NCBI RefSeq assembly: GCF_019550795.1
Contig: NZ_CP080545.1
Span: 3,630,001 to 3,694,000 of the forward strand
DNA length: 64,000 nucleotides
Reading direction: 5' to 3'
Source: Paenibacillus sp. sptzw28
GTDB taxonomy: Bacteria > Bacillota > Bacilli > Paenibacillales > Paenibacillaceae
The notes beneath the pieces are model-generated. The model saw only the letters and a list, made by a program, of their open reading frames with translations, did no database searches and was not told where the DNA came from. A program made the position numbers and the translations under genes. This document shows positions 15,071-43,958 of this stretch, piece by piece (within the stretch, counting starts at the first letter, position 1; each line of letters opens with the position of its first letter).

Positions 15071-15883
15071 TTAAGATGCCAGCAGATAAATCAAAAATAC
15101 CGCTGCAAGCACGAAACGGTAGTACGCGAATGGGGCCAGTTTCAAGCGCGCGAGCAGCTTTAGAAACGTCATGACCGCAGCAAGTGCAACGACGAATGAA
15201 ACCACAAATCCTGTCGCAAAGAAGCCTGCGTCCGCCGCCGATAGCGAATGGTAGTTTTTCAGCAGTTCATAGCCTGTCGCTGCAAACATGATCGGTATCG
15301 CAATCAGGAATGAAAAGTTAGTTGCGGCTCTGTAGCTGGCTCCCACAAGCATCCCGCCGGCAATCGTCGCACCGGATCGTGAGAAGCCCGGCCATAACGA
15401 GAGGCATTGAAACATACCGATCAGCAGAGCCTGGCGGTACGACAATTGATCGATCCCCTCGGCCTCGACCTTCGGCTGCATCTTCTGGCCAATGAGCATG
15501 AATATTCCGCCGACAACCAGTCCAATCAAGACCGTATACGGAGAGAACAAGTACTTTTTTATAATGGACTGAAAGATCAATCCCATCAGCATGGCCGGAA
15601 AACACGCCAGAATGACATGAATGAGATTCAATCGGGTGGCTCCCGCAGAGTCTGTTCCGACTTTAGCTAATCCAAGCAAACCTAATAATCTCCGCCAGTA
15701 AATAACCGCTACGGCCAGAATAGCGCCAAGCTGAATAATAATTTCAAAAGTATCCGCCTTATCACCAGTGAAACCCAGAAGCCTGCCCGTCAGAATCAGA
15801 TGGCCGGTTGAAGAGACCGGTAAAAACTCCGTCAGCCCTTCGACAATTCCTTGAATTACGGCTGTTACAATATCCTGCGTCAA
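15071..15883 (-). CDS. uppP: undecaprenyl-diphosphatase UppP (BacA family), first copy
   Basis: A polytopic membrane enzyme of 270 residues that removes a phosphate from undecaprenyl pyrophosphate, recycling the cell-wall lipid carrier and giving bacitracin tolerance. Both signature motifs are intact: EGLTEFLPVSSTGH near residue 15 and WPGFSRSGATIAGG near 160. The start appears to be TTG at 15883, with AAAGGAGG nine bases upstream. A second full copy lies at 36859-37695; the two differ clearly and are not a recent duplication. Confidence 0.93.
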   Translation of the reverse strand: MTQDIVTAVIQGIVEGLTEFLPVSSTGHLILTGRLLGFTGDKADTFEIIIQLGAILAVAVIYWRRLLGLLGLAKVGTDSAGATRLNLIHVILACFPAMLMGLIFQSIIKKYLFSPYTVLIGLVVGGIFMLIGQKMQPKVEAEGIDQLSYRQALLIGMFQCLSLWPGFSRSGATIAGGMLVGASYRAATNFSFLIAIPIMFAATGYELLKNYHSLSAADAGFFATGFVVSFVVALAAVMTFLKLLARLKLAPFAYYRFVLAAVFLIYLLAS

Positions 15884-18375: not shown

Positions 18376-18864
18376 TTAAGCGAAAAATACGAATTTAAGC
18401 AGAATACTGATGATAATCCCGAATACCGCACCGGCGAATACCTCGATCGGGCGGTGTCCGAGCAGCTCCTTAAGCTCCATTCGATTCGGTTCCTGCTGAC
18501 TCATGGAAGGAATGGTTTTGGCCAGCCGGTTCAAGAAGGATGCGTGCATGCCGGCATGCCTCCGGATCCCTGCCGCATCATACATAGTAATTGCGCTTAC
18601 AACCACGGAAATGGCGAATAAAGAAGACGCCAGTCCCTCCGATATTCCGATCGCCGTGGTCAGCGAAGAAACAGCGGCGGAGTGAGAGCTCGGCATGCCT
18701 CCGGTACTAAATCCCAATCTGATATTCAATGATTTGCTCGTAATGAGATAGAGCGGAACTTTAACGAATTGGGCTAATATGATCGACGATAGAGCCGCTA
18801 TCAAAGGGAAATTGTTGAAAATAGACAAAGCGGATCTGTCTCCTTTTCGGGTAAATTTGATCAT
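18376..18864 (-). CDS. divergent PAP2 family protein (YuiD/DUF212)
   Basis: A 162-residue membrane protein. It carries GGMPSSHSAAVSSL, the hallmark of the family and reminiscent of the PAP2 motif PSGH, and ITMYDAAGIRRHAGMHA further on. The family is thought to be a phosphatase-like membrane protein but its substrate has not been settled. It sits between a two-component system and a lipid glycosyltransferase, consistent with a role in membrane lipids. Confidence 0.88.
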   Translation of the reverse strand: MIKFTRKGDRSALSIFNNFPLIAALSSIILAQFVKVPLYLITSKSLNIRLGFSTGGMPSSHSAAVSSLTTAIGISEGLASSLFAISVVVSAITMYDAAGIRRHAGMHASFLNRLAKTIPSMSQQEPNRMELKELLGHRPIEVFAGAVFGIIISILLKFVFFA

Positions 18865-26604: not shown

Positions 26605-27513
26605 CTAGACTGCCGTGCTCAGCTTCCACTCGCATTTCATGTGCAGCCTGCCGGCTTTTAGCTCGGCGGATAGCTTCCCGTCCATTTTTAACATCAGGCT
26701 TTTGGCTATGGATAAGCCGAGCCCGGTGCCTTTACCGGACCTTGCCCGGTCCGCTTTGTAAAACCGGTCGAACAGCATCCCCAGGTTGTATTCGGTTACA
26801 TGTTTGGCTTCATTGCTTACCGTCAATACGGCAGTTGAATGCCGCTTCTCAAGGTGAACCGACACGCTTCCGCTTGAATGAACGACCGCATTGAGAAGAA
26901 GGTTTTCAATGACTCTTTTTACCGCAGAGTCATCAGCGATAATAACAATTTCTTCATCAGGCAGGTGAATAGCCGTCTTAATGCCTTGTTCGTTAAACCG
27001 GTCATAGAATCCAATCAGGATTTCCGAGACCGCGTTAGTCATTTTTAACCTCTCCAGCCTTAATGGATAGTCGACGGATTCAATCAGGGACAATTCGAAG
27101 AAATCGTTCAACAGTTCCTGCAGCCGCTTGGTCCGGTTTCTAATAACCGACAAGTATTCTTTCTTCTCCTCCATCGTAAGCTCCTCGGCTTCGAGCAGCT
27201 GGATATACCCGAAGATAGAGGTAAGCGGTGTGCGGATGTCGTGCGACATATTGGAAACCGCCTGCCTAAGCTCATCTTCAGTCCGTCTTCTCCGGGCATT
27301 GGCCTCCGTAACGAGATCGGACTGGCGATTGATCTCGGCCGCAAGCGCTTCCAGGTGCTTATCGTAAAACGCAAGATCGATTTTCTTCTCAGTGGTTCGG
27401 TTGTTGTATTGTTTAAGCTGCCTGGTAATGCTTGTCATTTCTTTCTTCATGAAGATAAAGCGGATGAAGAAAGCTAACGCGGCTATAACCGAAACAATCG
27501 TGATATAGATCAT
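26605..27513 (-). CDS. small sensor histidine kinase of the ABC-transporter operon
   Basis: A 302-residue kinase with a single N-terminal hydrophobic segment (MIYITIVSVIAALAFFIRF), no extracellular domain, phospho-His in NMSHDIRTPLTSIFGY, and ATP-binding motifs LENLLLNAVVH and GTGLGLSIAKS. Start at 27513 with GGGTGGGA upstream. It ends an operon regulator, ABC ATPase, permease, kinase, an order common in lantibiotic or bacitracin resistance modules, where such short kinases respond to drug through the transporter. Confidence 0.88.
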   Translation of the reverse strand: MIYITIVSVIAALAFFIRFIFMKKEMTSITRQLKQYNNRTTEKKIDLAFYDKHLEALAAEINRQSDLVTEANARRRRTEDELRQAVSNMSHDIRTPLTSIFGYIQLLEAEELTMEEKKEYLSVIRNRTKRLQELLNDFFELSLIESVDYPLRLERLKMTNAVSEILIGFYDRFNEQGIKTAIHLPDEEIVIIADDSAVKRVIENLLLNAVVHSSGSVSVHLEKRHSTAVLTVSNEAKHVTEYNLGMLFDRFYKADRARSGKGTGLGLSIAKSLMLKMDGKLSAELKAGRLHMKCEWKLSTAV

Positions 27514-27537
27514 GCTTCCCACCCGCTTTCCCGAAAG

Positions 27538-28299
27538 CTATTTAATTTCCTTCCTGCGATAGACCAGAATACTCAGGAGCCCGAAAACAATAAACGTTAT
27601 AACCGGTACAAGCACGATCGTTGCCATTTCGCTGTTATTCAGGCTGAATTTACCGATATCCTGAATGAGCTTGAACACCGAGTAATCATATACGGTCCTA
27701 AGCAGCGGGAGATAACTGCCTATACCGGCGAGGATTGAATCGACAAGAAGGAAGAACACCATTGAGAAGCCGATCGTCTTGCCGCTCTCCGTGAAGATAG
27801 CCGAGAAGAACGCTGCAATGGAAGCGATGCCCGCCGCATAAAGCAGCGACAAGCCTGCCGTTCTCCATATATAAAGTCCGTCAACGGCTGCCGGAAATTC
27901 ACCGATCCCGGAGAAAAGCGAAGCTACCGCAGCGCTTACCAATGGGAACAACACGGAGATGACCATCGTCCCTGCTGAGAAGCCAAGCAGCTTGGCTGCA
28001 AATATCCGGCTTCTGCTGCTGCCTGACGATGCGATTGTCTTCATGACGCCCGTCGAATACTCGCTGGCAATGAAAAACCCGGCGAAAATCGCAGCTCCGA
28101 ACTTAATGATGTACGCATTTCCCCCGAGTCCCTTAATAAAGAATTCAATGCCTGTGCTCTGTTTAACACCGTCCGAGAGATTGTCAATATACTCGATGAT
28201 CGGATATGCAGCACCAAAGGCGATGAGAAGGTAAACGAGCGTCCAGAACGATCTGTCTTTACGCAGCTTGAATAATTCCGCTTTGACGAGATTATCCAT
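27538..28299 (-). CDS. ABC-2 type permease (lantibiotic/bacitracin-resistance type)
   Basis: A 253-residue membrane protein with about six predicted helices. Its start (NLVKAELFKLRKDRSFW) is typical of the ABC-2 permeases paired with BcrA/LanF-type ATPases. It ends in a basic tail (VYRRKEIK). Start at 28299, preceded by GGGGGG; its frame overlaps the ATPase gene by 8 bases. It would export or fend off a membrane-active peptide. Confidence 0.88.
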   Translation of the reverse strand: MDNLVKAELFKLRKDRSFWTLVYLLIAFGAAYPIIEYIDNLSDGVKQSTGIEFFIKGLGGNAYIIKFGAAIFAGFFIASEYSTGVMKTIASSGSSRSRIFAAKLLGFSAGTMVISVLFPLVSAAVASLFSGIGEFPAAVDGLYIWRTAGLSLLYAAGIASIAAFFSAIFTESGKTIGFSMVFFLLVDSILAGIGSYLPLLRTVYDYSVFKLIQDIGKFSLNNSEMATIVLVPVITFIVFGLLSILVYRRKEIK

Positions 28300-29215
28300 G
28301 ATGCAGCCCCCCGATCCGCTTCGTGAAGAAGCCTTCCAAATCTTCTCCCATCGGCATGAATTGCTCAATTACGAGCCCGGCGGCGGATAAGGCGGCCGAG
28401 ACTTTGCCCGGTTGTTCCAGATGCTTATACAGCTTGATGACACTCTCCGGCATCACCTCAAAGTCGGTGGTGGCAAGCTCATGTTCAATGACCGCCGCTG
28501 CTTTACCCGGATTGTTCACTTTAATATGCAAATACTGCTGACACTTCTCCTGCAGCTCCTTGCTTGTCAGCTGCTCCAGCAGATTGCCGTGATGAATAAT
28601 GCCGTAGTGGCTCGCCAGCAAATGCAGCTCGCTCAAGATGTGGCTCGATATGAGAATGGTAATTCCCTGCTGGCGGTTCAACCGCTTTAGCAGCTCTCTC
28701 ATCTCGACAACGCCCATCGGATCCAGCCCGTTAGTCGGCTCGTCGAGTATGAGAAACTCCGGGTCTCCCAGCAAGGCGATCGCAAGGCCCAGCCGTTGCT
28801 TCATACCTAATGAGAAGTTCTTTGCCTTCTTCTTGCCCGTCTCTTCCAGTCCGACGAGAGCCAGTGTTTTCCGGGTACACTCTTTACCGGGGATCCCTTT
28901 CAGAATTCTATGAGCCTCCAGATTGTCCTCAGCCGTCATATGCGGGTACAAGGCCGGTCCTTCAATAATGGATCCGATCCGCTTGCGGGCAAGTGTAAGC
29001 TCCTGGGCGCCGCTCTCACCGAACAGCTCGATTGAACCGCCCGTAGGGAAGGCAAGTCCTGTCGCGATTCGGATCAGGGTTGATTTGCCAGCCCCGTTCT
29101 GTCCGATAAACCCGTATATAGCGCCTTTTCGGATCGAAAGATTGACTTTATCCAAAGCATAGCTGTTCTTAAATTTTTTGCTGAGATTATTGGTCCTGAG
29201 AACATATTCGTTCAT
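28292..29215 (-). CDS. ABC transporter ATPase (BcrA-like)
   Basis: A 307-residue ATPase: Walker A IGQNGAGKSTLIR near residue 39, signature FSLGMKQRLGLA, Walker B FLILDEPTNGLDP, then a His-switch in ISSHILSEL. The 80-residue C-terminal extension is usual for drug-resistance ABC-2 partners. Start at 29215, preceded by AAAGGAGG. It is co-transcribed with the permease and the kinase at 26605-27513. Confidence 0.9.
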   Translation of the reverse strand: MNEYVLRTNNLSKKFKNSYALDKVNLSIRKGAIYGFIGQNGAGKSTLIRIATGLAFPTGGSIELFGESGAQELTLARKRIGSIIEGPALYPHMTAEDNLEAHRILKGIPGKECTRKTLALVGLEETGKKKAKNFSLGMKQRLGLAIALLGDPEFLILDEPTNGLDPMGVVEMRELLKRLNRQQGITILISSHILSELHLLASHYGIIHHGNLLEQLTSKELQEKCQQYLHIKVNNPGKAAAVIEHELATTDFEVMPESVIKLYKHLEQPGKVSAALSAAGLVIEQFMPMGEDLEGFFTKRIGGLHHG

Positions 29216-29297
29216 TTCGCCATGGCCTCCTTTATGTGATAGCTTAAGCATAAAGACGAAACCATAAGAGAAGTTAAAGCTAACGCTTAAGAAAACC

Positions 29298-29990
29298 TTA
29301 AGACTTAAGGCGATACCCCATGCCCCAAATCGTCTCGATATACTCTTCACCCGGATTTACTTTCGCCAGCTTCGTTCTCAAATTGCTCATATGGACATTG
29401 ATCGTATTGTCATCGCCAAGAAAATCGTCGCCCCACACGCTCTCAAAAACATTTGCTTTCGTGAAAATCTTTCGCGGAGACGACATGAGAAGCGCCAAAA
29501 TGCCATATTCCCGCGCCGTCAAGCTCAGCTCCGAATCATTCACGGATACAGTCTTCGCATACGGATCGAGAGTGACATCCTTGTGCTTGAGAAGAATTTG
29601 TCCGGTCTGTGGGGTAAAGCGTGCGAATCTCCTTAAATGTGAGTCGATACGGGCCGATACTTCCTCAATATCGAAGGGCTTCGTAATATAATCATCCGCA
29701 CCCGTCCGCAGCGTTTCAATTTTGGTCTGGCGCTCTTCTTTAGCCGAGATCACGATTACAGGATACGAGCCTTGCCGATTGATTCGGGCTAGAAGCTCTT
29801 CCCCGGTCATTCCGGGCAGCATTAAATCCAGCAAAACCATATGCCATTCCTGCTTCTCCAAATAAAGCAGCGCCTCCGTCCCGGAATAGGCAGGCTGAGG
29901 GGAATAACCGCTTTTCCTCAAAATCCCGCACAATAACCGGTTGATGTCGTCATCATCTTCCACCACCAAAATATTTACCGGTTTCTCCAT
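29298..29990 (-). CDS. OmpR-family response regulator of the ABC-transporter operon
   Basis: A 230-residue regulator with receiver domain (VEDDDD, phospho-Asp in VLLDLMLPG, Lys in YITKPFDIE) and winged helix ending IETIWGMGYRLKS. It opens the operon that encodes the ABC-2 transporter and kinase and most likely induces it on peptide antibiotic stress. Confidence 0.92.
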   Translation of the reverse strand: MEKPVNILVVEDDDDINRLLCGILRKSGYSPQPAYSGTEALLYLEKQEWHMVLLDLMLPGMTGEELLARINRQGSYPVIVISAKEERQTKIETLRTGADDYITKPFDIEEVSARIDSHLRRFARFTPQTGQILLKHKDVTLDPYAKTVSVNDSELSLTAREYGILALLMSSPRKIFTKANVFESVWGDDFLGDDNTINVHMSNLRTKLAKVNPGEEYIETIWGMGYRLKS

Positions 29991-30128: not shown

Positions 30129-31406
30129 TTATTGCTTCATCTTTCGAAAGATCTCAAGCAGGATTACATTCAGGCTGAGCCAAGTGCCGCCGAATACATA
30201 ACCCGCGGCAACGTCACTCGGGTATTGCACATTGTAATAGATTCGGCTTAACCCGACAAGCAGGCACAGTATAATCACGACTGCCGCTGCGGCCAATCGA
30301 ATATATACTTTTCCATAATGCCGAACCAGCAAATACGCCGCGAAGCCGCATACCGTTATGGAAGTAAGAGTCTCCTTGCTCGGAAAAGTATTGAAAAACT
30401 GGAACCCGCCTGAAATCGGACCCGGACGGTGAAACAACCAGCGCAGCCCTTCGTCTAGCACTTCCCCGCCTATGACGACCACGGCAAGAAAACTCATTTC
30501 AAGACGGCGGTCCTTGCCTTTGACGATGATCCAAACCAGAGTAAATACAATGAGTGGAATAAAGACAAGGTAAGAGCCGAGCAAGGCGAAACGGCTCATC
30601 CAGGCATCCCAGCCCGCGCCAAATATTGCATGCACAAGATATGAAGTCAGCTGGTCAAAGAGGGAGAATTCTTGAGCCAGGAAATCCTGAATCAATCCGA
30701 TCATCAGGGAGAAGAACAGAATAAATACGGCAAATGCCGACAGAACGATAAATTTCACCTTGCCGAGAGAATGAAAATGCCGGATTCCTGCTTCAAGCAA
30801 ATCCGTCATGCGGGTAAAAATAAGCTGCTTATTCTTCCGGTACAGATAAACCAGGATAAAGACGACAAAAGCCGCAATACCGGCAATCAGCAGGTAGCGG
30901 TTAATGGTGTGATGGTATTTCTCCCACTTGGGACCAAGTAATTTCCCGAGAGTAATGAATACTCCCACCCATAAAAGAGCCCCCGAATAGGCAAAAACGG
31001 CATATTTGCGAAAAGACATCCGGGTAACTCCCGAGAAATAACCTGTGAAGTGTCTCACGCCTGGCAGAAAAAACGAGATGATCAACAATTTGTTCCCATA
31101 TTTATCAAACCACTCCGACACTTGAGCCAGCTTCTCCGGCCCCATATGAAACCGGGAACCATATTTCTCGAAGAACGGCTTGCCGAGTTTGAAGCCGATC
31201 CAATAAGCTGCGGTTATTCCGGCAATGGCTCCCGCGCCCGCAGATGCCAGGGAAAGCAGCCAATTTAACTTCCCCTCGTAAATCTGCAAGCCGGTATAAC
31301 TCAGCAATATTTCACCGGGAAGCGGAAGAGCGAGCATTTCGAGCGCTAGAGCTATAAACAGCACACCGTAACCGTAATGATCCAACCATTGCGTCAAGAA
31401 TTGCAT
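30129..31406 (-). CDS. DedA-family flippase fused to a degenerate PAP2 domain
   Basis: A 425-residue membrane protein. Residues 1-200 are DedA/SNARE-associated, with LEMLALPLPGEILLS and FFLPGVRHFTGYFSGV; residues about 215-425 follow the PAP2 phosphatase fold. The PAP2 catalytic residues are not conserved: K(x6)RP reads RWLFHRPGP, PSGH reads PSKE (342-345), and the nucleophile in SR(x5)H is Gln394 in SRIYYNVQYPSD. DedA proteins are known undecaprenyl-phosphate flippases. The C-terminal half is therefore probably structural, regulatory or a lipid-binding module rather than an active phosphatase. Start at 31406 with GGAGGG upstream. Last gene of an operon with a BcrC-like phosphatase and a two-component system. 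Confidence 0.88.
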   Translation of the reverse strand: MQFLTQWLDHYGYGVLFIALALEMLALPLPGEILLSYTGLQIYEGKLNWLLSLASAGAGAIAGITAAYWIGFKLGKPFFEKYGSRFHMGPEKLAQVSEWFDKYGNKLLIISFFLPGVRHFTGYFSGVTRMSFRKYAVFAYSGALLWVGVFITLGKLLGPKWEKYHHTINRYLLIAGIAAFVVFILVYLYRKNKQLIFTRMTDLLEAGIRHFHSLGKVKFIVLSAFAVFILFFSLMIGLIQDFLAQEFSLFDQLTSYLVHAIFGAGWDAWMSRFALLGSYLVFIPLIVFTLVWIIVKGKDRRLEMSFLAVVVIGGEVLDEGLRWLFHRPGPISGGFQFFNTFPSKETLTSITVCGFAAYLLVRHYGKVYIRLAAAAVVIILCLLVGLSRIYYNVQYPSDVAAGYVFGGTWLSLNVILLEIFRKMKQ

Positions 31407-31756: not shown

Positions 31757-32368
31757 CTAAGGCCGCTCCGTCCGCGATAAACCTTTCGGCCAAATTCGCC
31801 GCTCCACTCCTTCATACAATCCGAGGCCAGATTCAAACCACTTCCTTACTTGAAAGGAACGGTGGAACAACCCGTGTATTCCTGCGGCGGATCCGATACC
31901 GATAATAGCTCCGGCGATTACATCCAGGGGATAGTGAACTCCTGTCCACACACGGGAGAAAGCGATACACGCCGCTATCAGCAGCCATATTAAGCCGTCT
32001 CGCCTCCTGAACATATAGATCGATGTTGCGATGACAAAAGCGCCGATTGCGTGATCGCTGGGAAAGGAGGCATTGGCCGGATGGCCGATTAATTGGGTAA
32101 CGTGATGAACGACGAACGGACGGTCCCGGTAGAATAAATGACTCAAGACCACGCCGATTCCAAAAGCTGCGCATGCCGACACCAGCGCTTCGCCTACCAT
32201 CCGTCTACAGTCGCTCGTCCGGCTGAACCAGTATACGATGATGCCCGCGTAGAATAAGTAAGAGCCGTCCGAGGCAAAAAAACGCATAACTGCATCAAGC
32301 CAGGGCATCCGTCCAGCGAGATTATTGATAATTTCAAAGATGGAATAATCCATTTGCGATATAAACAT
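31757..32368 (-). CDS. undecaprenyl-diphosphatase of the BcrC/PAP2 type
   Basis: A 203-residue membrane phosphatase. PAP2 motifs are present: LFYRDRPF (motif 1), ASFPSDHAIGAF (motif 2; PSDH is characteristic of BcrC) and SRVWTGVHYPLDVIAG (motif 3 with the nucleophile His). Expected reaction: dephosphorylation of undecaprenyl pyrophosphate at the outer face, giving bacitracin tolerance. Start at 32368, preceded by AAAGGGGAATACCT. It follows the kinase gene by 14 bases. Confidence 0.9.
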   Translation of the reverse strand: MFISQMDYSIFEIINNLAGRMPWLDAVMRFFASDGSYLFYAGIIVYWFSRTSDCRRMVGEALVSACAAFGIGVVLSHLFYRDRPFVVHHVTQLIGHPANASFPSDHAIGAFVIATSIYMFRRRDGLIWLLIAACIAFSRVWTGVHYPLDVIAGAIIGIGSAAGIHGLFHRSFQVRKWFESGLGLYEGVERRIWPKGLSRTERP

Positions 32369-32382
32369 AGGTATTCCCCTTT

Positions 32383-33786
32383 CTATTCATCCACGCCATT
32401 GTGCGGCAGCGTAACGGTTACAATCGTCCCATGGTTTTCCTTGCTTGTAATGCTGATTGCGCCTTGATAACCTTCCACCATTCGTTTGGCGATCGAGAGA
32501 CCGAGGCCGCTCCCGCCTAATGTCCGGCTTCGCGCTTTATCGACACGATAGAATCTGTCAAACACGCGTGAGACTTCCTCTTCAGGGATCCCGATTCCAT
32601 AATCGGTAACCTTCAGCTGGAATAAGCGTTCGGGAGTTACTGTTACATGCAGCCGTATTACCTTTTTATCACCGGAATACTTAACCGCGTTGTCCAGAAT
32701 AATAATCAGGATTTGTTTCCAATGATCTTCGTTCATGGCGATCAACACACCGGATGCCGTTTCATAGTCGGTATTGAACGTAAACGCCGGGTAGAGAACG
32801 GCAAAATCATCGGTCAATTGCCTGATTGAAAGGATGGGATCGATTAGTTCCGGGAGCTGCTGCGTCAACGCTTCGGCGCGCGACAGGGTGAGCAGCTCCT
32901 GCGACAGCTTCTTCAGCCGGGCCAGTTCCTGAAGCGACGCCTTGAGCGACTCGTCCAGAATCGCGGGGTCGCGTTTCCCCCACCGCTGCAGCATCGCCAG
33001 ATGGCCTTCGATAATTGCTATGGGCGTACGCAGCTCGTGCGACGCATCCTCTACGAACTGCTTCTGCTGCTGAAACGACGATGAGAGACGGTCCATCATT
33101 TCATTGAACATTTGACTGAGTACCGACAGTTCGTCCTTATTGGGAATAAAATCGACTCTCTCATTCAAACCGTTATGCGTTATTCTTCCCATCGTCTCCG
33201 TCAGAACGGCAACAGGCTTGACCAACTGTCTCGCGAGCAGCACCGCGCCCAGAATGCCCACTGCTATGCCGATAAGCCCCCCGACAGCCATAATCAGAAG
33301 CATAATATGATTTACTTTCTCGTACGTTTCCAGATCTCTCACAATTTCGATGGTACCGGTGAAGGAGGTGAGTATCAACGGACTGCGCAGAATCAACAAA
33401 TGATCGTCGCCGTGCCACACCTGCACCAGCTTCGTTGCCTCAGCCACTTGAGGCAGTACCCATTGACTCGGTAGAATATCGCTGATCGTAAGAACCACGC
33501 GACCGTTATCATCAAGAATGCGAATCATCTGATTGCTTTGGTTCACTTTGCCGAGGAAGCTTCTGCTTCCCGCTATATCTGTCGAGGCCTTATCGGCGAA
33601 ATAGCCTTGTATCTCTTCAAAGCTTTTTTGCAGCGTCTGCTGCTCCTGACTCATTGCCCACCTGTTGAGAATCAAATATTGGGCGCCGCTGTAACAGGCG
33701 AACAGGATGATGATGAACAGCGACGACCATAAGGTAAGACGCCACTTTACAGGCAGCGCATTAATACGCGCGATAAGAGCTGTCAT
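32383..33786 (-). CDS. HAMP-containing sensor histidine kinase of the BcrC/DedA operon
   Basis: A 467-residue kinase: TM1 near 17-35, extracellular domain of about 120 residues, TM2 near 160-182, HAMP (RQLVKPVAVLTETMGRI), phospho-His in DASHELRTPIAIIEGH, N box IILDNAVKYSGD and G box VTDYGIGIPEEE. The start codon overlaps the regulator stop by 4 bases. The two genes downstream encode lipid-carrier enzymes, suggesting that it senses envelope or lipid II-cycle stress. Confidence 0.92.
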   Translation of the reverse strand: MTALIARINALPVKWRLTLWSSLFIIILFACYSGAQYLILNRWAMSQEQQTLQKSFEEIQGYFADKASTDIAGSRSFLGKVNQSNQMIRILDDNGRVVLTISDILPSQWVLPQVAEATKLVQVWHGDDHLLILRSPLILTSFTGTIEIVRDLETYEKVNHIMLLIMAVGGLIGIAVGILGAVLLARQLVKPVAVLTETMGRITHNGLNERVDFIPNKDELSVLSQMFNEMMDRLSSSFQQQKQFVEDASHELRTPIAIIEGHLAMLQRWGKRDPAILDESLKASLQELARLKKLSQELLTLSRAEALTQQLPELIDPILSIRQLTDDFAVLYPAFTFNTDYETASGVLIAMNEDHWKQILIIILDNAVKYSGDKKVIRLHVTVTPERLFQLKVTDYGIGIPEEEVSRVFDRFYRVDKARSRTLGGSGLGLSIAKRMVEGYQGAISITSKENHGTIVTVTLPHNGVDE

Positions 33787-34454
33787 CGCATCACATATCC
33801 GATTCCGCGAAGGGTTCGAATATAGCCTTCTTCGCCGGAATCTCCCAGTTTATTGCGAACGTATCTGACATAAACGTCTACGACATTCATCTCCACCTCG
33901 GCATCAAAGCCCCACACATTATCTAGCAGCATGTCTCTCGTCAAAACGCGGTTAATATTGCTCATGAATAAAGCGAGCAAATCGAACTCTCTCTTTGTCA
34001 GAGAGATGGACAGCTCTCCCTTCATTACGATTCGCGAATCCGTATTCAGGCTTATATCCCTGAAAGTAAGCAAGGATTGGCTGTCACCATACTTGTCCAC
34101 GCGGCGCTGCAGGGCGCGAATACGGGCAAGCAGCTCTTCGATCGCAAACGGTTTGGGAATATAGTCGTCCGCTCCGCTGTCAAGCCCCGATACCCGGTCG
34201 ATTACACTGTCTCTTGCGGTCAGCATGATGATCGGCGTGAGCTTCTTCTCCCGAACCCGTCTGCATACGTCGAAGCCGCCAAGTCCTGGAAGCATCAAAT
34301 CGAGGAGGATCAAATCCCATTCCTCACTAAGAGCCAGCTTCAGCCCTTTCTCCCCGTCATAAGCGACCGTGACCGAGTAGCTTTCATGAGTAAGCTCGAG
34401 TTCGATAAATCTGGCAAAATTAACTTCATCTTCGATGACAAGAATTTTTTTCAT
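33783..34454 (-). CDS. OmpR-family response regulator of the BcrC/DedA operon
   Basis: A 223-residue regulator with receiver domain (IEDEVNF, phospho-Asp in ILLDLMLPG, Lys in YIPKPFAIE) and winged helix ending RTLRGIGYVMR. It is the first gene of the five-gene operon regulator, kinase, BcrC-type phosphatase, small membrane protein, DedA-PAP2 fusion. Confidence 0.92.
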   Translation of the reverse strand: MKKILVIEDEVNFARFIELELTHESYSVTVAYDGEKGLKLALSEEWDLILLDLMLPGLGGFDVCRRVREKKLTPIIMLTARDSVIDRVSGLDSGADDYIPKPFAIEELLARIRALQRRVDKYGDSQSLLTFRDISLNTDSRIVMKGELSISLTKREFDLLALFMSNINRVLTRDMLLDNVWGFDAEVEMNVVDVYVRYVRNKLGDSGEEGYIRTLRGIGYVMR

Positions 34455-36858: not shown

Positions 36859-37695
36859 TTAGAAATAAACGACATAGACGATCACTGCCAGAATAATCCG
36901 GTAAACGGCGAACGGTACGAGCTTAACTCTGTTGATAAGCTTCAGGAAGAAACGTATCGAGATCAATGCAAACACAAAGGCGCTGACAAAGCCTGCGATA
37001 AAAAACGGCAGGGCGTCTAATGTGAAGTACTGCCAGTTCTTAAGCAGCGAGATCAAGCTGGCCCCAAGCATAATAGGAACGGCCATAATAAAGGTGAAAT
37101 CGGCTGCTGCGCGGTGACTCATTCCAAGCAGGACGCCACCGGAAATAGTCGAGCCTGACCGGGAGAATCCCGGCCATAAAGAAAAACATTGAATGAGCCC
37201 CACGGTTAGCGCCTGCTTGTAGGTAATTTGGTCGACAGTCTGGACTTTTGGAACTTTGGCGCGGAATTTATCCGCTGCAATCATGAATATAGCACCTATG
37301 ACCAATCCTGCTAATACCGTTCCGGTGGAAAATAAATGTTCATCGATATAATCCTCAAACAGCAGTCCCAAAATACCTGCGGGAAGCAGACCGACAATAA
37401 CCTGAGTAAGTTTAAGACGCCCCTCCCCTTGGGCGGTTGGCCCGCTCCGCCTTTTCAATTTCAGTCCCAAGAGATCGAGAAACCGGTCTTTAAAGATAAT
37501 GACGACGGCCAGAATCGATCCGAGCTGAATAACGACTTTAAACGTATTGGCTACATATTTGGTTAGAAACTGTTCGGACTGAAGCCACATATCGTCTACA
37601 ATGACCATATGTCCGGTAGACGATACCGGCGCGAATTCCGTAACTCCTTCGACAAACCCAAGCACGATCGCTTTTAATATCTCAATAATGTTCAC
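36859..37695 (-). CDS. uppP: undecaprenyl-diphosphatase UppP (BacA family), second copy
   Basis: A 278-residue membrane enzyme with EGVTEFAPVSSTGHMV and WPGFSRSGSTISGG, both active-site motifs intact. The start is GTG, and its G is the last base of the TAG stop of the preceding DedA gene (one-base overlap), with GGGAGAG upstream. It is the last gene of an operon that opens with a BceRS-type system and BceAB-type transporter, so it is expected to be induced by bacitracin-like drugs and to regenerate undecaprenyl phosphate. Confidence 0.93.
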   Translation of the reverse strand: MNIIEILKAIVLGFVEGVTEFAPVSSTGHMVIVDDMWLQSEQFLTKYVANTFKVVIQLGSILAVVIIFKDRFLDLLGLKLKRRSGPTAQGEGRLKLTQVIVGLLPAGILGLLFEDYIDEHLFSTGTVLAGLVIGAIFMIAADKFRAKVPKVQTVDQITYKQALTVGLIQCFSLWPGFSRSGSTISGGVLLGMSHRAAADFTFIMAVPIMLGASLISLLKNWQYFTLDALPFFIAGFVSAFVFALISIRFFLKLINRVKLVPFAVYRIILAVIVYVVYF

Positions 37696-38327
37696 TATTT
37701 AATCTCTCCCAAGTGCCGCCCGGCTTTTCTCCGTTTACGAACGTATAAGATAATCAAAACGATCAAGCCTAAACCAATTCCCGCATATGTAAAATTCGAA
37801 TAAACGTCCATGAAGCCGAGGATTTCCTGCCAAGATTCTCCCAGAGAAGCTCCAATCAGCACAAGAATAATATTCCAGATCAAGGTTCCTATTGTTGTAA
37901 ACAAGACGAACAGCCAGAATTTCATGCCGGACATTCCCGCGGGAATGGAAATAAGACTTCGTATAAGCGGAATCATCCGGCAGAACAGCACCGTCCAATA
38001 GCCGTATTTCTCGAACCATCTATTGGCTTTATGGATATCTTCCTTGGTGAGGCGCAGGATATGACCCCAGCGGCTAACGATTAGCTCCAGCCTTTCCACC
38101 TGAAGAAGATGGCCGATCCCGTAAAGAATAACCGCTCCGGCAACAGAGCCGGCTGTAGCTGCCGCAATCACTCCGGGAACCGTCAAATCTGTATGGGTAG
38201 TCATAAAGCCGCCGAATGTGAGAATGACCTCCGAGGGAATCGGGGGAAAAACATTTTCAAGAGCAATCATGACCACGATGCCGAGATACCCGAACTGTTC
38301 CATAAATGCGGTAATCCAATTTTGCAT
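37695..38327 (-). CDS. DedA-family protein (probable undecaprenyl phosphate flippase)
   Basis: A 210-residue membrane protein with the family's conserved acidic/amphipathic loop ENVFPPIPSEVIL near residue 24 and the arginine motif CRMIPLIRSLISIPAG near 117-132. Both arginines are kept, unlike in the fusion protein at 30129. Members have been shown to return undecaprenyl phosphate across the membrane. The ATG overlaps the TAA of the BceB-like gene and its own stop overlaps the start of uppP, so bceB, dedA and uppP are tightly coupled. Confidence 0.9.
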   Translation of the reverse strand: MQNWITAFMEQFGYLGIVVMIALENVFPPIPSEVILTFGGFMTTHTDLTVPGVIAAATAGSVAGAVILYGIGHLLQVERLELIVSRWGHILRLTKEDIHKANRWFEKYGYWTVLFCRMIPLIRSLISIPAGMSGMKFWLFVLFTTIGTLIWNIILVLIGASLGESWQEILGFMDVYSNFTYAGIGLGLIVLIILYVRKRRKAGRHLGEIK

Positions 38328-40318
38328 TAGCGTAGACCTCCGTTAACTAAAGCTTTCTTCAGGTTTCGTAGATATCGGTTGCGGATGAAGAAGAAATAGA
38401 AAATTTGGGCGATGAAAAAGCTGACCAGAACAACACCCATCTCACTTGCAATAGATAGGAAAAAGAACTTTTGGAGAGCAATAAAGGCGAAAACACTGTG
38501 AACACCCGCGAATCCTATCGGCACAAAAAACAACAATGCCAGCTGCCTCGTGACAATTTTAGTGAGCTCCGGGTCCGTTAATCCGATCTTGGCTATCGTT
38601 GCAAACTGGCGGCGGTCATAGTCAAGGTCGGCATATAGACGGAAATAGAGAAAGCTGCCGGCCGCGATGAAAAATACGGTTCCGATTAGCAGAGCAACAA
38701 ACAGCATGATGCTGTATAAGCCGCTTTGCACCTCCTGCAGAGTCCCGCTTATGGTGATCGCATAAGGCTTGCTCATGTCATATCTGACTGCGCCATCCTT
38801 TGCCAGGTGACCCGCGATCCCCATTGTTTGTTCAAAATCATGAACATAGAATCCCGTATACCGGTCGATTTTGGCCGGGGCTGCGATCAGGTCGAATAAT
38901 TGATCGCTGACAACCAGCCCGCTGAAGGTGCCGTCAATATCCTCGTCAAAGTCAGTTATGTTCAAATCCTCGTCAAGGTCGGCCAGTAAGTAATCGGGTA
39001 CGGCCACATGTTCCGTATAACCTTTCTCGCGAATGACGAGGTTATTTTCCTTCAACGTATACTCTGTCATCCCGCGTTCAGTTAGGTAGGCTTTATCCCT
39101 TTGCGAAGCTATCATGACCAGCGCCTGGCTTCCGGTTAACGTTTGTTCCCGGAAGGTGAATCCTGCCATATTTACTGCTTTCCTGTAATCTGAGAATGAT
39201 ATCAGGTGCAGCTGTTTCGCCGTGGAACCGGGTGTGGACGATACCGCATCCGCATATTTTATCGGCAGTGTGAAGCTTTCATACGGGATGCCTTTGGCTG
39301 ACAATTCTTCCCGAATCTCCATCAGGTGCTGCTGTTCGACCCGGCTGCCGTCTTTCGCGAGATAGCCGACAGCGGCCGGGTAATCTTCGCGGAATTGTTT
39401 GGATAACGTATTTATAGAAGTAAATACGCCAACCGAGCAGAACGAAACAGTCGAAATAACGGTTACCATAAAGAACATCCGGGCGTTGTCCTTCAGACGG
39501 TACGCAAGACTCGAAATCATGACAATATTGGTCCTTCTCAAAAAAAACGGCCTGCGTTTCTTGAGTATCTTGATCATGTGAACACTAAGCTGGGTGTAAA
39601 AGAAATAGGAACCGGTAATAGTCATTGCCGTGACCGGCAGCATGCGTACATATACCGTGGCAACCGTGGCGGTTGCCGCCAAATAGTAGGCCGCAATCAG
39701 GAGTACTGCGGCAAGAATCGATAGAAATACGGAGCTCCTCGGATCGGATTTTGGTTTCTGACCGGCTTGAAACAATTCGATTAACTTATTCGTGCGCGTA
39801 AGCACGGACGTGCAAATCGAAATAATCAGGAACAGCAGCACGAATGAGCTGACCGTAAGCGCCAGTACCTGCCATGAAACATACAAGGGCATGGACGGAA
39901 TCCCCAGAAAGCTGGAACCGACCATAAGGAATAGCTTTCCCGTCAATAAACCACCCAAAATTCCCGTCATGATGGACCCAAGCCCGATGATCATATTTTC
40001 AAGAAAAACCATCCGGTTCAATTGGCCTTTGGTCATACCGTGCATAATCAGGATCCCGAATTCCCGCTTTCGCGTCTTCAGAAACGAACTGACCGAATAA
40101 AGAACGAATAAGAACGAGAACACATACATGATACATTCGGCCGCCATCATCGCTTGAACGGCAATGCTCGCTATAACGCCTTCCTTAACGTTCGGATTGA
40201 AGATGAACAACGCGCAAACGAAGAATATCATGACTGAGAAGGCGCTGCTGAAGAAATACGCGGCGTATGTCCGCTTGTTGCGGGTGACATTTCTATAAGC
40301 GAACTGCCGAAATGTCAC
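38327..40318 (-). CDS. BceB-type FtsX-like ABC permease
   Basis: A 663-residue permease of the peptide-antibiotic resistance type: about ten helices, with a large extracellular domain between roughly residues 300 and 540. The first cytoplasmic stretch reads FRQFAYRNVTRNKRTYAAYF. Start is GTG 40318 with GGGAGGGG upstream; the frame stays open 48 codons more within the ATPase gene, overlapping it by 26 bases. Together with the ATPase it would detach bacitracin-like drugs from undecaprenyl pyrophosphate and signal to the kinase. Confidence 0.92.
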   Translation of the reverse strand: MTFRQFAYRNVTRNKRTYAAYFFSSAFSVMIFFVCALFIFNPNVKEGVIASIAVQAMMAAECIMYVFSFLFVLYSVSSFLKTRKREFGILIMHGMTKGQLNRMVFLENMIIGLGSIMTGILGGLLTGKLFLMVGSSFLGIPSMPLYVSWQVLALTVSSFVLLFLIISICTSVLTRTNKLIELFQAGQKPKSDPRSSVFLSILAAVLLIAAYYLAATATVATVYVRMLPVTAMTITGSYFFYTQLSVHMIKILKKRRPFFLRRTNIVMISSLAYRLKDNARMFFMVTVISTVSFCSVGVFTSINTLSKQFREDYPAAVGYLAKDGSRVEQQHLMEIREELSAKGIPYESFTLPIKYADAVSSTPGSTAKQLHLISFSDYRKAVNMAGFTFREQTLTGSQALVMIASQRDKAYLTERGMTEYTLKENNLVIREKGYTEHVAVPDYLLADLDEDLNITDFDEDIDGTFSGLVVSDQLFDLIAAPAKIDRYTGFYVHDFEQTMGIAGHLAKDGAVRYDMSKPYAITISGTLQEVQSGLYSIMLFVALLIGTVFFIAAGSFLYFRLYADLDYDRRQFATIAKIGLTDPELTKIVTRQLALLFFVPIGFAGVHSVFAFIALQKFFFLSIASEMGVVLVSFFIAQIFYFFFIRNRYLRNLKKALVNGGLR

Positions 40319-41063
40319 GACTCTCCCCTCCCAACAGCGACAGCATGTCGAGAATTTTCTGGAAGAACGTCTGGCGGTTGTTACCGCGATAAATCTCGTT
40401 ATAAAATTTGCCGTCCTTAATAAATATGACCCGATGACAGTAGCTGGCGGCGGCGGCATCATGCGTAACCATAAGAGTCGTCGCCCGTTCTTGTTCGTTA
40501 ATGGCCGAGAGCGTCTCCATTACGTCCCTCGAAGCTTTCGAGTCCAGGTTTCCCGTCGGCTCATCCGCCAGGATCAGCGACGGCCGATGAATGATCGCCC
40601 TTGCAATCGCTGTCCGCTGCATCTGCCCTCCCGATATTTCATAGGTCCGTTTCTTCAAAATACTTTCGATGCCCAGCTTCCTCGCCACTTCCATTAACCG
40701 TCTGTCCATTTCTTTCACGGACGCACCGTCCAGCGTGAGCGGCAGCACGATATTTTCTTCAACGGTTAACGAGTCAAGCAAATTAAAATGCTGGAACACA
40801 AAACCCAGCTGATGCCGGCGAAATAATGCCGTCTCTTTCCTGTTTAAACCGTGCGGATCCTTCCCGTTAATCCGGACCTCTCCGGAAGTAGGCTCGTCAA
40901 TCGTAGCGATTACGTTGAGCAGGGTCGTTTTCCCGCTCCCGGATGGTCCCATTATTCCGACGAATTCGCCGCCCTCAACACAAAATTGAACATTATCCAA
41001 TGCTTTATTGGACACTTTGCCTTCGTAAATTTTCGATACGTTTTTCACATCCAAAATAGACAC
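40293..41063 (-). CDS. BceA-type ABC transporter ATPase
   Basis: A 256-residue ATPase of the MacB/BceA group: Walker A GPSGSGKTTLLN, Q loop FVFQHFNLLD, signature reading ISGGQMQR (Ile in place of the usual Leu), Walker B LILADEPTGNLD, H loop VTHDAAAA. It is separated from the kinase gene by 96 bases that contain a TATAAT -10 without a recognisable -35, as expected of a promoter activated by a BceR-type regulator. Confidence 0.92.
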   Translation of the reverse strand: MSILDVKNVSKIYEGKVSNKALDNVQFCVEGGEFVGIMGPSGSGKTTLLNVIATIDEPTSGEVRINGKDPHGLNRKETALFRRHQLGFVFQHFNLLDSLTVEENIVLPLTLDGASVKEMDRRLMEVARKLGIESILKKRTYEISGGQMQRTAIARAIIHRPSLILADEPTGNLDSKASRDVMETLSAINEQERATTLMVTHDAAAASYCHRVIFIKDGKFYNEIYRGNNRQTFFQKILDMLSLLGGESRDISAVRL

Positions 41064-41159
41064 CTGTAACGGCTCCCTTATCGTTTTTTTGAAACGATCG
41101 TTATGTCTTGATTATATAAGTCCAGGTACGGCTCAGCTATCGTTCAAGATTACATTTGC

Positions 41160-42146
41160 TTACAGCTTTGTAAGGTTGAATATTATCCGGACGACCGTTC
41201 CTTCCCCGGCGGTTGATTCCAGTTCAACCCGGTGGCCAAGCTTACCGCATATTTGCTTAACGAGATAAAGTCCCATCCCGGTCGACTCCTGAAAATTACG
41301 TCCATTCTCACCCGTAAAATAAGGATCGAAGATGCGCGGCAGATCGCCGGCCGGAATTCCGACGCCTTCATCCTGGATTTCCAGTACCCCGTTTACGCCA
41401 TGAATATATCCGTGAAAATGAATCTTTCTATTGTCTTCCACTGTATATCTGACCGCATTCGTAATAAGCTGCGTTATGACGAACGAAAGCCATTTCTCAT
41501 CCGAGGCGATACCAATCCTGCCTTCCATCCGAATAACGGGGAAAATCCGGCTGCGGATAAACAGCCGCTTCTGACTTGACGTAACGGTTCGTATAATAGT
41601 TTCCAGGTCCAGCGCTTCAACAACAAAGTCGTGCTCGAACGCATCAAGCCGCGCTGTATATAATACCATCTCAAGCCCTTTTTTTAACTTGTCTAATTCA
41701 TCGCCGATGGCATGCAGGCGCGGCTCGTCTTCGTTTTGAATCATTAGGTGGATGACCGATACAGGAGTTTTCATCTGATGTACCCACTGATTTATGAACT
41801 GAATATGATCGTCGATTTTGTGCCTATAGCGGAGAATATCCTTCTGATAATGACGGAATTGGCTTTTTAGAAGATGCTGTAAGCCTTCAGCCAGAGGGGT
41901 TTGCTGATTATTTCCCGCAAAATCTTCACTGCCGGCGAGCGGATTTTCCATCCGGTTATAGAAACTGCGATTCGTGAGATATCGGTATATTAGATAGCCT
42001 ATAAAGAGGCACCCGCTTAGCAAGCATGCATATAAGCTGACCGCAAGGCTGCGGTGGCCGTCAAGCCGGTATATAAGCGTAATGACAAGCAGCTGAGCAA
42101 GATATATGTAAAAAAGAGGGAGCTGCTCACGCAGGAAAAGCTTCAT
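41160..42146 (-). CDS. BceS-type intramembrane-sensing histidine kinase
   Basis: A 328-residue kinase with two closely spaced N-terminal helices (about 11-27 and 36-56) and almost no extracellular loop, the design of BceS kinases that are triggered by their partner transporter. The phospho-His is in NQWVHQMKTPVSVIHLM, with ITQLITNAVRYT and GMGLYLVKQICGKLGH in the ATPase. Its start overlaps the regulator stop by one base. Confidence 0.92.
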   Translation of the reverse strand: MKLFLREQLPLFYIYLAQLLVITLIYRLDGHRSLAVSLYACLLSGCLFIGYLIYRYLTNRSFYNRMENPLAGSEDFAGNNQQTPLAEGLQHLLKSQFRHYQKDILRYRHKIDDHIQFINQWVHQMKTPVSVIHLMIQNEDEPRLHAIGDELDKLKKGLEMVLYTARLDAFEHDFVVEALDLETIIRTVTSSQKRLFIRSRIFPVIRMEGRIGIASDEKWLSFVITQLITNAVRYTVEDNRKIHFHGYIHGVNGVLEIQDEGVGIPAGDLPRIFDPYFTGENGRNFQESTGMGLYLVKQICGKLGHRVELESTAGEGTVVRIIFNLTKL

Positions 42147-42844
42147 TATTCACTCCCCCAGTTCGGCAGCAGCCTGTACCCTTGACCGCGAATTGTTTGC
42201 AGAGCATCATTAATGTTTAATGTCGTTAATTTTTTGCGGACGCGGTTCACGTAAACGTTCAACGTATTATCGTCAACGAACGTTTCATCATCCCATATTT
42301 TCTCCAGCAGCCGGTCACGGCTCACCACCCGCTCTGACTTCTTCATCAGCTCATCCATTATTTTCGCTTCGGTGTGGCTGATTTCCACTTTAGCATCCTT
42401 AAACGAGAGAATTAGCCGTTCGATATCCAGTGTTAATCCTTCGACTTCAATTGACCGTTCATTAAACGTCCCCGCATATGTACCGTAAGCCCGGCGAAGC
42501 AGGCTTTTAATTTTGGCTGTTGCAATTTCATAGTCGAAAGGCTTTGTAATATAATCATCCGCCCCGTTTTCAATAGCCATTACTTGATCCATTTTCCCTT
42601 CGCGTGCGGAAATAAAAAGAATAGGACAAGTGGAACTGCCGCGAATTTGCCGGCACCAATAATATCCGTCATACTTAGGCAAATTTATATCCATCAGGAC
42701 GAGATGAGGTGCAAATTGTTCAAACTCGGATTGCACCTTCTCAAAATTAACCACCGCTTGAGTTGTATAGCCGAATTTATGCAAATGCTCTTCGAGCAAG
42801 CTGACAAGCCCCTTGTCGTCTTCAACAATAAGAATTCTAAACAT
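42146..42844 (-). CDS. BceR-type OmpR-family response regulator
   Basis: A 232-residue regulator: receiver domain (VEDDKGL, phospho-Asp in VLMDINLPKYDGYYW, Lys in YITKPFDYE) and winged helix ending IRGQGYRLLPN. The INLPKYDGYYWC segment is typical of BceR regulators. It heads the run regulator, kinase, ATPase, permease, DedA, UppP. Confidence 0.92.
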   Translation of the reverse strand: MFRILIVEDDKGLVSLLEEHLHKFGYTTQAVVNFEKVQSEFEQFAPHLVLMDINLPKYDGYYWCRQIRGSSTCPILFISAREGKMDQVMAIENGADDYITKPFDYEIATAKIKSLLRRAYGTYAGTFNERSIEVEGLTLDIERLILSFKDAKVEISHTEAKIMDELMKKSERVVSRDRLLEKIWDDETFVDDNTLNVYVNRVRKKLTTLNINDALQTIRGQGYRLLPNWGSE

Positions 42845-42904: not shown

Positions 42905-43171
42905 CTAAACGTATGCCTCAAACAGCTTATATATATAATCCAGCGCTTCTTCCTCGTCTTTCCCTTTGGTTACTAAACGAATAGCAGTGCCGGTTTTGAT
43001 GGGCAGCAGCAGCATGCCAAGCAGGCTCTTCACATCCACGAAGCATTCCAGGCCGTCTTCATTCGTATATTCCATTCTGATATCTGAGATAAACCGTGAG
43101 GATTTTGCCGAGATTTCTGTCAGATCGCTTCGCTGAATATTAGCATTAATGATAAACCGGTGTACTCTCAT
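42905..43171 (-). CDS. HPr-fold protein without the phospho-histidine
   Basis: An 88-residue protein, the length of HPr, aligning with it through MEY...VDVKSLLGMLLLPIKTG, where HPr has the Ser46 region KSIMGVMSLG. The equivalent serine is Ser49. The active-site loop (G-[IL]-H-A-R-P in HPr) is NIQRSDLTEIS here, with no histidine; the only His is residue 4. It therefore cannot act as an ordinary PTS phosphocarrier and may resemble Crh, which keeps the regulatory serine but has lost His15. Start at 43171, with GAAGGTGGG upstream. Confidence 0.8.
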   Translation of the reverse strand: MRVHRFIINANIQRSDLTEISAKSSRFISDIRMEYTNEDGLECFVDVKSLLGMLLLPIKTGTAIRLVTKGKDEEEALDYIYKLFEAYV

Positions 43172-43319: not shown

Positions 43320-43958
43320 TTACTGCATGTTAAACGGAGCCATCTGTTGATTTGCCTGCATCTGTTGATTTGCCTGCATCTGTTGATTTGCCTGCATCTG
43401 TTGATTAGCCTGCATCGCTCCAGATGGAGCATATGCGCTCAGGACTGTATCTGTCGTCACTTCTTTCATCGTAGGGACTTGATAATAGCCTCTCTGATTC
43501 ATATAGCCCCATACTTCATAGGCTTGCTCCGCGCAATTGATGGCTCCTTGCTGGAGCGTGTGGCGAAGCTGCGGGTTCGCGCATTCCAACGCGCCCATCA
43601 TTTTTTTCGCGGCGCCATTTTTATGACAGCTCAGCATTGCGCTCGCCACGTCGCGATCATTCAACTCATTGATTCCGGAGACCGGTCTATGCTGAGCGGG
43701 ATGGTCGAGTCCGTAAGTCGGCGAAACATTACGGGGCGACTGATAAGTGACCGCCTGGCCTGCGCCTTGTTGCTGAAGCAGTTGAACCGTACTATTGTAT
43801 TCCTGCGTCAAAAACTGAAGCTGATGATCGAGCAGCTGTGCAAGATGCTGGTCCTTCACGTAGGGACGCAGCAGTTGAAAATGATTTGCCGTGTTAATTG
43901 CTTCCGTTAATATCTCGTGTACTTCCATTACCTCATGAGCGCCTAAATGTGCAGCCAT
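43320..43958 (-). CDS. CotF-family spore coat protein with C-terminal QANQQM repeats
   Basis: A 212-residue protein with two CotF-like helical segments: VMEVHEILTEAINTANHFQ with KDQHLAQLLDHQLQF, and NDRDVASAMLSCHKNGAAKK with AINCAEQAYEVWGYMNQRGYY. It is followed by a tail of four MQANQQ hexapeptides. It is expected to be assembled in the spore coat or on the spore surface. It forms a short sporulation cluster with the acidic protein gene before it, and ends in a strong terminator. Confidence 0.88.
   Translation of the reverse strand: MAAHLGAHEVMEVHEILTEAINTANHFQLLRPYVKDQHLAQLLDHQLQFLTQEYNSTVQLLQQQGAGQAVTYQSPRNVSPTYGLDHPAQHRPVSGINELNDRDVASAMLSCHKNGAAKKMMGALECANPQLRHTLQQGAINCAEQAYEVWGYMNQRGYYQVPTMKEVTTDTVLSAYAPSGAMQANQQMQANQQMQANQQMQANQQMAPFNMQ
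43341..43412. repeat. four 18-base tandem repeats inside the coat gene
   Basis: Four copies of an 18-base unit (plus strand CATCTGTTGATTTGCCTG), three identical and the last with one change, encode the hexapeptide repeats. The near identity at synonymous positions points to recent slippage expansion. Confidence 0.9.

Follow-up and report, generated by a model that had tools for sequence, protein, structure and literature searches.

A conserved Bce/Psd-type module with dedA and uppP in Paenibacillus: a putative drug-induced operon for salvage of the undecaprenyl carrier

Why should a peptide-drug response module be followed by two genes for recycling the undecaprenyl lipid carrier? This question is raised by a 64,000-nucleotide stretch of Paenibacillus sp. 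sptzw28 (NZ_CP080545.1, positions 3,630,001-3,694,000; hereafter the window, whose own numbering is used below), in which open reading frame (ORF) calls place bceR, bceS, bceA, bceB, dedA and uppP in this order on the minus strand, from 42844 to 36859. A preliminary description of this DNA had seen in them one coupled operon that frees the carrier from bacitracin, dephosphorylates it and flips it. Our analysis indicates that the operon is real and conserved, and that a dedA gene within a bce/psd-type operon appears to be undescribed in the open literature searched. Judging from the protein families and the company of the genes, we favour, with moderate confidence, a drug-induced carrier-salvage operon, that is, a Bce/Psd-type peptide-drug response extended by two carrier-recycling genes.

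Gene order and its conservation

ORFs, domains and conservation confirmed the row of genes (Table 1), and the one-base stop/start overlaps described earlier proved right: the minus strand reads TAATG at the bceB/dedA junction and TAGTG at the dedA/uppP junction, stop and start having one base in common in each. A single base (42146) is also common to bceR and bceS, bceA runs 26 bases into bceB, and a spacer of 96 bases (41064-41159), which contains the -10-like TATAAT, lies between bceS and bceA. The start of bceB is likely the GTG at 40318, the ORF that reaches 40462 being an upstream extension. The exact one-base overlaps are not kept in other loci, where gene order and direction are: among the 72 loci that are complete in the order sample introduced below, dedA begins a median of 23 bases (range 1 to 75) after the BceB match ends, and uppP a median of 71.5 bases (range -10 to 450) after dedA.

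Table 1. Genes and putative promoter elements of the operon (window coordinates)
Feature	Position	Strand	Basis and remarks
bceR-like response regulator (OmpR type)	42146-42844	-	Response_reg and Trans_reg_C domains
bceS-like kinase	41160-42146	-	best solved relative BceS (E 2.6e-40); hydropathy
BceR-type box, TTACA-N4-TGTAA (TTACAGCTTTGTAA)	41160-41173		overlaps the bceS stop codon, about 100 bases before bceA
TATAAT, -10-like element of putative bceA promoter	41111-41116	-	invariant in 5/5 aligned promoters
bceA-like ATPase	40293-41063	-	ABC_tran domain
bceB/psdB-like permease	38327-40318	-	FtsX domain; solved relatives PsdB and BceB; hydropathy
dedA, UptA-like membrane protein	37695-38327	-	VTT domain; below cut-off of NCBIfam UptA models; residues
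uppP, undecaprenyl-diphosphate phosphatase	36859-37695	-	NF001390, 363.7 bits; GTG start

We searched 392 sampled genomes from the order for BceB and found matches at E 1e-170 or better in 88 of them, 91 matches in total. The surroundings of all 91 were read; 30 of them (L005 and L031-L059, all in the larger group below) offered only about 1.5 kb downstream. The matches separate into a clade of 78 loci that holds the window BceB (above 800 bits, tblastn identity 50% or more) and a next-nearest group of 13 (below 670 bits, 40 to 44% identity). Results showed that uppP follows in 78/78 loci of the window clade and that an intact-looking dedA is present as well in 72 of them, counting L052, whose dedA match is in two pieces. 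The preliminary description would have fallen had the arrangement been absent from all related genomes; these counts clearly say otherwise. Neither gene was found in the next-nearest group (0/13), nor within 4 kb downstream of 33 other bce loci (L247-L279, 29 to 40% identity), which are what a search for relatives left once one of its 34 loci proved to be among the 13. With 72/78 complete loci against 0/46 control loci, chance adjacency can be rejected. Both this search and that of the class, described below, sample genomes and score roughly three candidates in each, which means that extra bce copies can be missed.

The association does not come from conservation of the whole region either. 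When 39 complete loci were compared over 9 kb (45% identity, 60% cover), no flanking gene of the window turned up again, with the exception of a second window UppP, whose matches in the 78 loci fall on the operon's own UppP in 78/79 cases; synteny was therefore rejected as the cause. Moreover, BceB, DedA and UppP have diverged together: over 70 loci their distances correlate with r 0.91 (BceB-UppP), 0.81 (BceB-DedA) and 0.80 (DedA-UppP), as compared with a maximum of 0.13 with permuted labels, although a part of these correlations is due to common species history. Not entered in this test were L052 and L105, whose genes are split in two, the five dedA-less loci, and L102.

Transporter, phosphatase and promoter

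We asked which kind of module stands in front of dedA and uppP. PsdRSAB and BceRSAB of B. subtilis carry an inverted-repeat box before the ATPase gene. Bce-like modules have been defined by a ten-helix permease with a loop of more than 170 residues between helices 7 and 8, a kinase with exactly two helices and a loop of at most 12 residues, and clustering of the four components (PMC3023708; this and the other papers are cited for the portions of their text at hand). The hydropathy of the permease, taken over a 19-row alignment, gave ten helices and an outside loop of about 230 residues, with peaks near 22-40, 62-80, 109-127, 151-169, 197-215, 222-240 (weak) and 281-299 before the loop and at 539-557, 595-613 and 627-645 after it (helices counted by hand, overlapping peaks merged). 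The kinase has two helices, at about residues 8-26 and 35-53, joined by a loop of 8 residues. Regulator, kinase, ATPase and permease genes are clustered; by these features, read from the sequence, bceRSAB here is a Bce-like module (PMC3023708). An inverted-repeat box also precedes the ATPase gene.

Among solved structures the permease lies closest to PsdB, both in profile searches (353 bits, 161 for BceB) and in single-sequence searches (279 and 128). By its scores it is nearer PsdB than B. subtilis BceB, unlike what would be expected of the bacitracin-type BceAB proper. PsdAB has been described for nisin, a lipid II binder (PMC7038271); bacitracin, named as the substrate in the preliminary description, is neither implied nor supported. 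The phosphatase is clearer: UppP scores above two curated equivalog cut-offs (NF001390, 363.7 against 260; TIGR00753, 300 against 217.5) and matches a solved UppP at E 4e-78, so that it is, by these models, a clear carrier phosphatase, in agreement with the earlier view that it yields undecaprenyl phosphate.

PsdRSAB and BceRSAB thus share with our locus the four components, the two-helix, short-loop kinase and the ten-helix, large-loop permease, but they are described as four-component modules (PMC3023708), whereas here dedA and uppP come after bceB. According to PMC6208641, bceRSAB genes do not as a rule have uppP or bcrC next to them. The bcrAB-type bacitracin clusters with uppP or bcrC, such as bacRS-bcrAB-uppP of the B. 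cereus group, likewise join a sensor pair, an ATP-binding cassette (ABC) transporter and a carrier phosphatase; they differ by another transporter class, and no DedA gene is mentioned in the available text of that paper (PMC6208641). Translocase and phosphatase domains also occur fused in one chain, as DUF368-PAP2 and DUF368-BacA (PMC9876793) or DedA-PAP2 (PMC12893004), while here they are separate genes behind a drug sensor. A search of the open literature, with many subscription papers outside it, turned up no bce or psd operon described as containing dedA, as the preliminary description had supposed for a carrier flippase, and no paper found there brings BceAB, DedA and UppP together. PMC11279074 contains the words BceAB, undecaprenyl, operon and DedA, but in its available text dedA occurs a single time, in a table row dealing with colistin heteroresistance.

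Concerning transcription, the site before bceA has the form TTACA-N4-TGTAA, which we take to be a BceR-type box. Sites of this type occur once in the window against 0.01 expected, and the 16-base version CTTACAN4TGTAAG has one exact copy in the whole genome, the one before bceA. With one mismatch allowed, only 4 sites were found, below the 23 of a reversed control pattern, and they were not taken as evidence of a regulon beyond the operon. The box is found 93 to 137 bases upstream of the BceA match start in 66/77 loci of the order sample and in 95/110 promoters over all overlapping locus sets (L044, whose bceA is cut by the contig, is omitted); five aligned promoter regions combine it with an additional GTAA half-site and TATAAT. 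In four loci of one genus (L060, L062, L064, L072) an opposite-strand block of about 2 kb separates bceS from bceA and leaves bceAB-dedA-uppP whole; by eye it holds genes for an oxidoreductase and a MarR-type regulator and, in three of the four, one for a small membrane protein. The effector operon can thus begin at bceA, and the inclusion of bceRS in one coupled operon, as first described, had to be given up in its strict form, because their co-transcription with the rest is not obligatory. Terminator-like sites of the minus strand all lie within genes, with no such site at a junction or downstream of uppP, in a crude scan whose hits exceed those of its own shuffles.

Other carrier genes were noticed around the operon. 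A DedA-PAP2 fusion (30129-31406) lies some 5 kb past the end of uppP, a PAP2 protein resembling BcrC by eye (31757-32368) stands behind its own sensor pair (32383-34454), and the second UppP (15071-15883) and a DUF212 divergent PAP2 protein (18376-18864) are also in the window. At 26605-29990, regulator and kinase genes lie on either side of an ABC pair that is nearest the lantibiotic-protection type, below cut-off. Possibly, then, the window is an island of carrier-recycling genes under several sensors. The next gene upstream of bceR, also on the minus strand, encodes a small protein that is HPr/Crh-like by eye (42905-43171), and a coat-like protein, again by eye, with a tandem QANQQM tail lies at 43320-43958.

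The carrier-salvage reading and what weighs against it

Starting from the gene order, its conservation, the box and the protein families observed here, we propose the following course of events, in which the drug, the induction, the flipping and the coupling of the three acts are conjectural. The transporter would sense a peptide drug and remove it from its carrier-linked target outside the membrane, and its activity would turn on the kinase and the regulator, which would bind the box before bceA and raise bceAB-dedA-uppP together. UppP would convert freed or leftover undecaprenyl pyrophosphate to undecaprenyl phosphate before the drug rebinds, and DedA would carry the product to the inner face, away from the drug and ready for a new round; more phosphatase together with inward removal of its product would make each carrier release count. 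It has been argued that such a transporter, by freeing the carrier, lets the following enzyme act for at least one more round before the drug rebinds (PMC7038271), and BacA/PAP2 and DedA/DUF368 proteins work in series (PMC12826051). A stronger form, which we put forward tentatively and hold to be possible rather than probable, is that transporter, phosphatase and flippase act in succession, perhaps in one membrane complex, as a retrieval line by which the carrier is reset and pulled inside before the drug rebinds. If it were true, resistance would come from clearing the target from the surface and not from drug removal alone.

Several results weigh against the carrier-salvage reading, beginning with the identity of DedA. 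The genome encodes seven DedA proteins, six besides the operon copy, and two more UppP, so the operon copies are not the sole source of either activity. The comparison of interest is with the undecaprenyl phosphate transporter UptA, also called PopT, whose first paper is reportedly that of Roney and Rudner. The operon DedA belongs to the same domain family but stays below both NCBIfam UptA cut-offs (NF052605, 175.2 against 300; NF052604, 126.1 against 250), and the genome has a separate UptA orthologue, a different DedA at genome position 4931140-4931727 with 308 bits (cut-off 250); the operon protein was therefore rejected as a true orthologue. On the staphylococcal UptA model its 175 bits are nonetheless the best of the seven, the others reaching 111, 71, 70 or no score. 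The earlier statement that DedA proteins are known undecaprenyl phosphate flippases was too strong: such activity has been reported for some members of the family, B. subtilis also has PetA, proposed for phosphatidylethanolamine (PMC11474028), and the operon protein has the low scores given above.

We also compared the carrier-binding residues of B. subtilis UptA, E32, Q64, R112, R118, H119 and W146, where single changes at E32, R112, R118 and W146 cause the largest loss of binding and where R112 and R118 match arginines required in E. coli DedA proteins (PMC11474028). With the numbering carried over through an UptA above cut-off (G549) that has the same letters at the same numbers, the operon DedA retains these four of the six, which speaks for our reading, and has A at 64 and S at 119, which speaks against it. 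As the kept arginines are needed in E. coli DedA proteins too, they support a working DedA more than its cargo. In the DedA tree, all 81 operon-kind proteins (window plus 80) fall into a single clade (100/100 support), separate from UptA and placed beside it; this adjacency to UptA is weak (84/89), in a bootstrap that had not settled; the tree holds no identified PetA sequence, and the label of genomic context switches several times along the clade. The operon DedA is UptA-like, lies near the UptA group and probably flips undecaprenyl phosphate.

A second set of adverse points concerns the constancy of the operon. In the order sample, dedA is absent from L044, L051, L080, L082 and L084 and reduced to a fragment in L102, so the earlier claim that the operon restores the whole carrier cycle was too strong. 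Five of these six genomes (G377, G389, G410, G399 and G248, of which G248 is 68% complete) lack any relative of the operon dedA at E 1e-30, and the sixth, G234, has one of 36% identity. The box, as searched, is missing in 11/77 promoters. Two more species of the genus to which the window belongs (L003, L004) carry bceAB-uppP without dedA; each encodes, some 35 kb from the operon, a DedA with 56 to 58% identity. From these losses, DedA is the part most often lost, and the flippase looks like an add-on.

Outside the order the link is loose. In a class sample of 398 genomes, 20 had a BceB match, 8 of them outside the order. Two of these (G887, G871; BceB 54 to 55%, box present) have neither dedA nor uppP in about 5 kb downstream, which also counts against our reading, and in five others the 1.5 kb that were read contain neither. 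The remaining one, G905 (BceB 43%), has bceRSAB-dedA but lacks the box and an adjacent uppP. UppP is matched once in this genome, on another contig, and a further DedA of the operon kind is found elsewhere on the operon's contig. Near this bceRSAB-dedA (L296:5155-10191, L297:16241-19876) we noticed by eye a peptide-synthetase gene some 4 to 5 kb off, and the genes could be self-protection of a peptide producer. A universal link of the window BceB clade with dedA and uppP was thus rejected; in one lineage the link of bceAB with uppP/dedA is almost fixed, and outside it the link is loose.

When loci were chosen by DedA similarity, the full operon was also found in named Bacillaceae, namely Metabacillus bambusae, Metabacillus arenae and a Rossellomorea (L152, L159, L179). 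Among the best 80 of 244 confirmed DedA loci of the named collection, a script counted 31 with bceAB-dedA-uppP, 16 with dedA-uppP and no bceB match, and 33 without uppP. At L127, one of the 16 pairs, the contig edge lies inside an apparent bceB remnant; it is labelled a pair in the context and box counts and an operon in the DedA tree, and 15 pairs remain without it. L155, an operon in the context count and the tree and a pair in the box count, has a bceB that looks damaged and no bceA, bceR or bceS matches, with dedA and uppP remaining. Seven of the pairs without bceAB were viewed and have varied neighbour genes. Pairs of this kind noted in Bacillaceae are L139, L143, L144, L148, L150, L153, L157, L158, L160, L162, L167, L173 and L182. 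Finding dedA and uppP together without a transporter argues that the pair itself has some role. At L148, the box-like TTACAAAATTGTAA stands 110 bases upstream of dedA, which suggests that a Bce-type regulator encoded elsewhere may control this pair.

Alternative readings and biological meaning

We considered whether the drug binds undecaprenyl phosphate itself, as those of the amphomycin/laspartomycin type do, in which case DedA would be the main protector by withdrawing the target from the outer face, and the transporter mostly a sensor. In B. subtilis, laspartomycin C, an undecaprenyl phosphate binder, induces the Psd promoter 25-fold, and it induces both Bce and Psd, four-component systems without a flippase, with no protection (PMC7690785); a Psd-like module plus flippase would fill this gap. 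In addition, a carrier translocase of another family gave amphomycin resistance when expressed in a permeable laboratory E. coli (PMC9876793), and dedA is present in 72/78 operons. On the contrary, friulimicin B, with the same target, induces neither Bce nor Psd (PMC7690785), and it is UppP, whose activity would add to such a target, that never varies (78/78), with dedA sometimes lost. We consider this explanation unlikely, although it is the strongest of the alternatives.

More doubtful still is that the operon DedA moves another lipid, for example phosphatidylethanolamine, and protects by altering the membrane surface, its adjacency to uppP not being mechanistic. The family does include PetA, proposed for phosphatidylethanolamine (PMC11474028), and the operon protein does not reach the UptA cut-offs and has neither Q64 nor H119; yet its six paralogues score lower than it on the staphylococcal UptA model, and the dedA-uppP pairs without bceAB link this DedA to the phosphatase. 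Finally, that uppP and dedA are spare carrier genes hitch-hiking on a strong inducible promoter, with no coupled function, would agree with the unrelated flanks, the further genome copies of both genes and the variants without one or both, but it is very improbable considering that the association is limited to one BceB clade, is almost fixed there within the order, and comes with coordinated divergence of BceB, DedA and UppP.

The carrier-salvage reading, which we retain, bears on the DedA family as a whole. DedA proteins are often multi-copy, and their role in drug responses is hard to discern; a conserved dedA behind a peptide-drug sensor, with a matching phosphatase, offers a natural setting in which to ask when carrier flipping limits survival, and the natural variants without dedA or without uppP are built-in controls. 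The operon suggests that such genomes may counter carrier-binding drugs by target clearing besides target protection.

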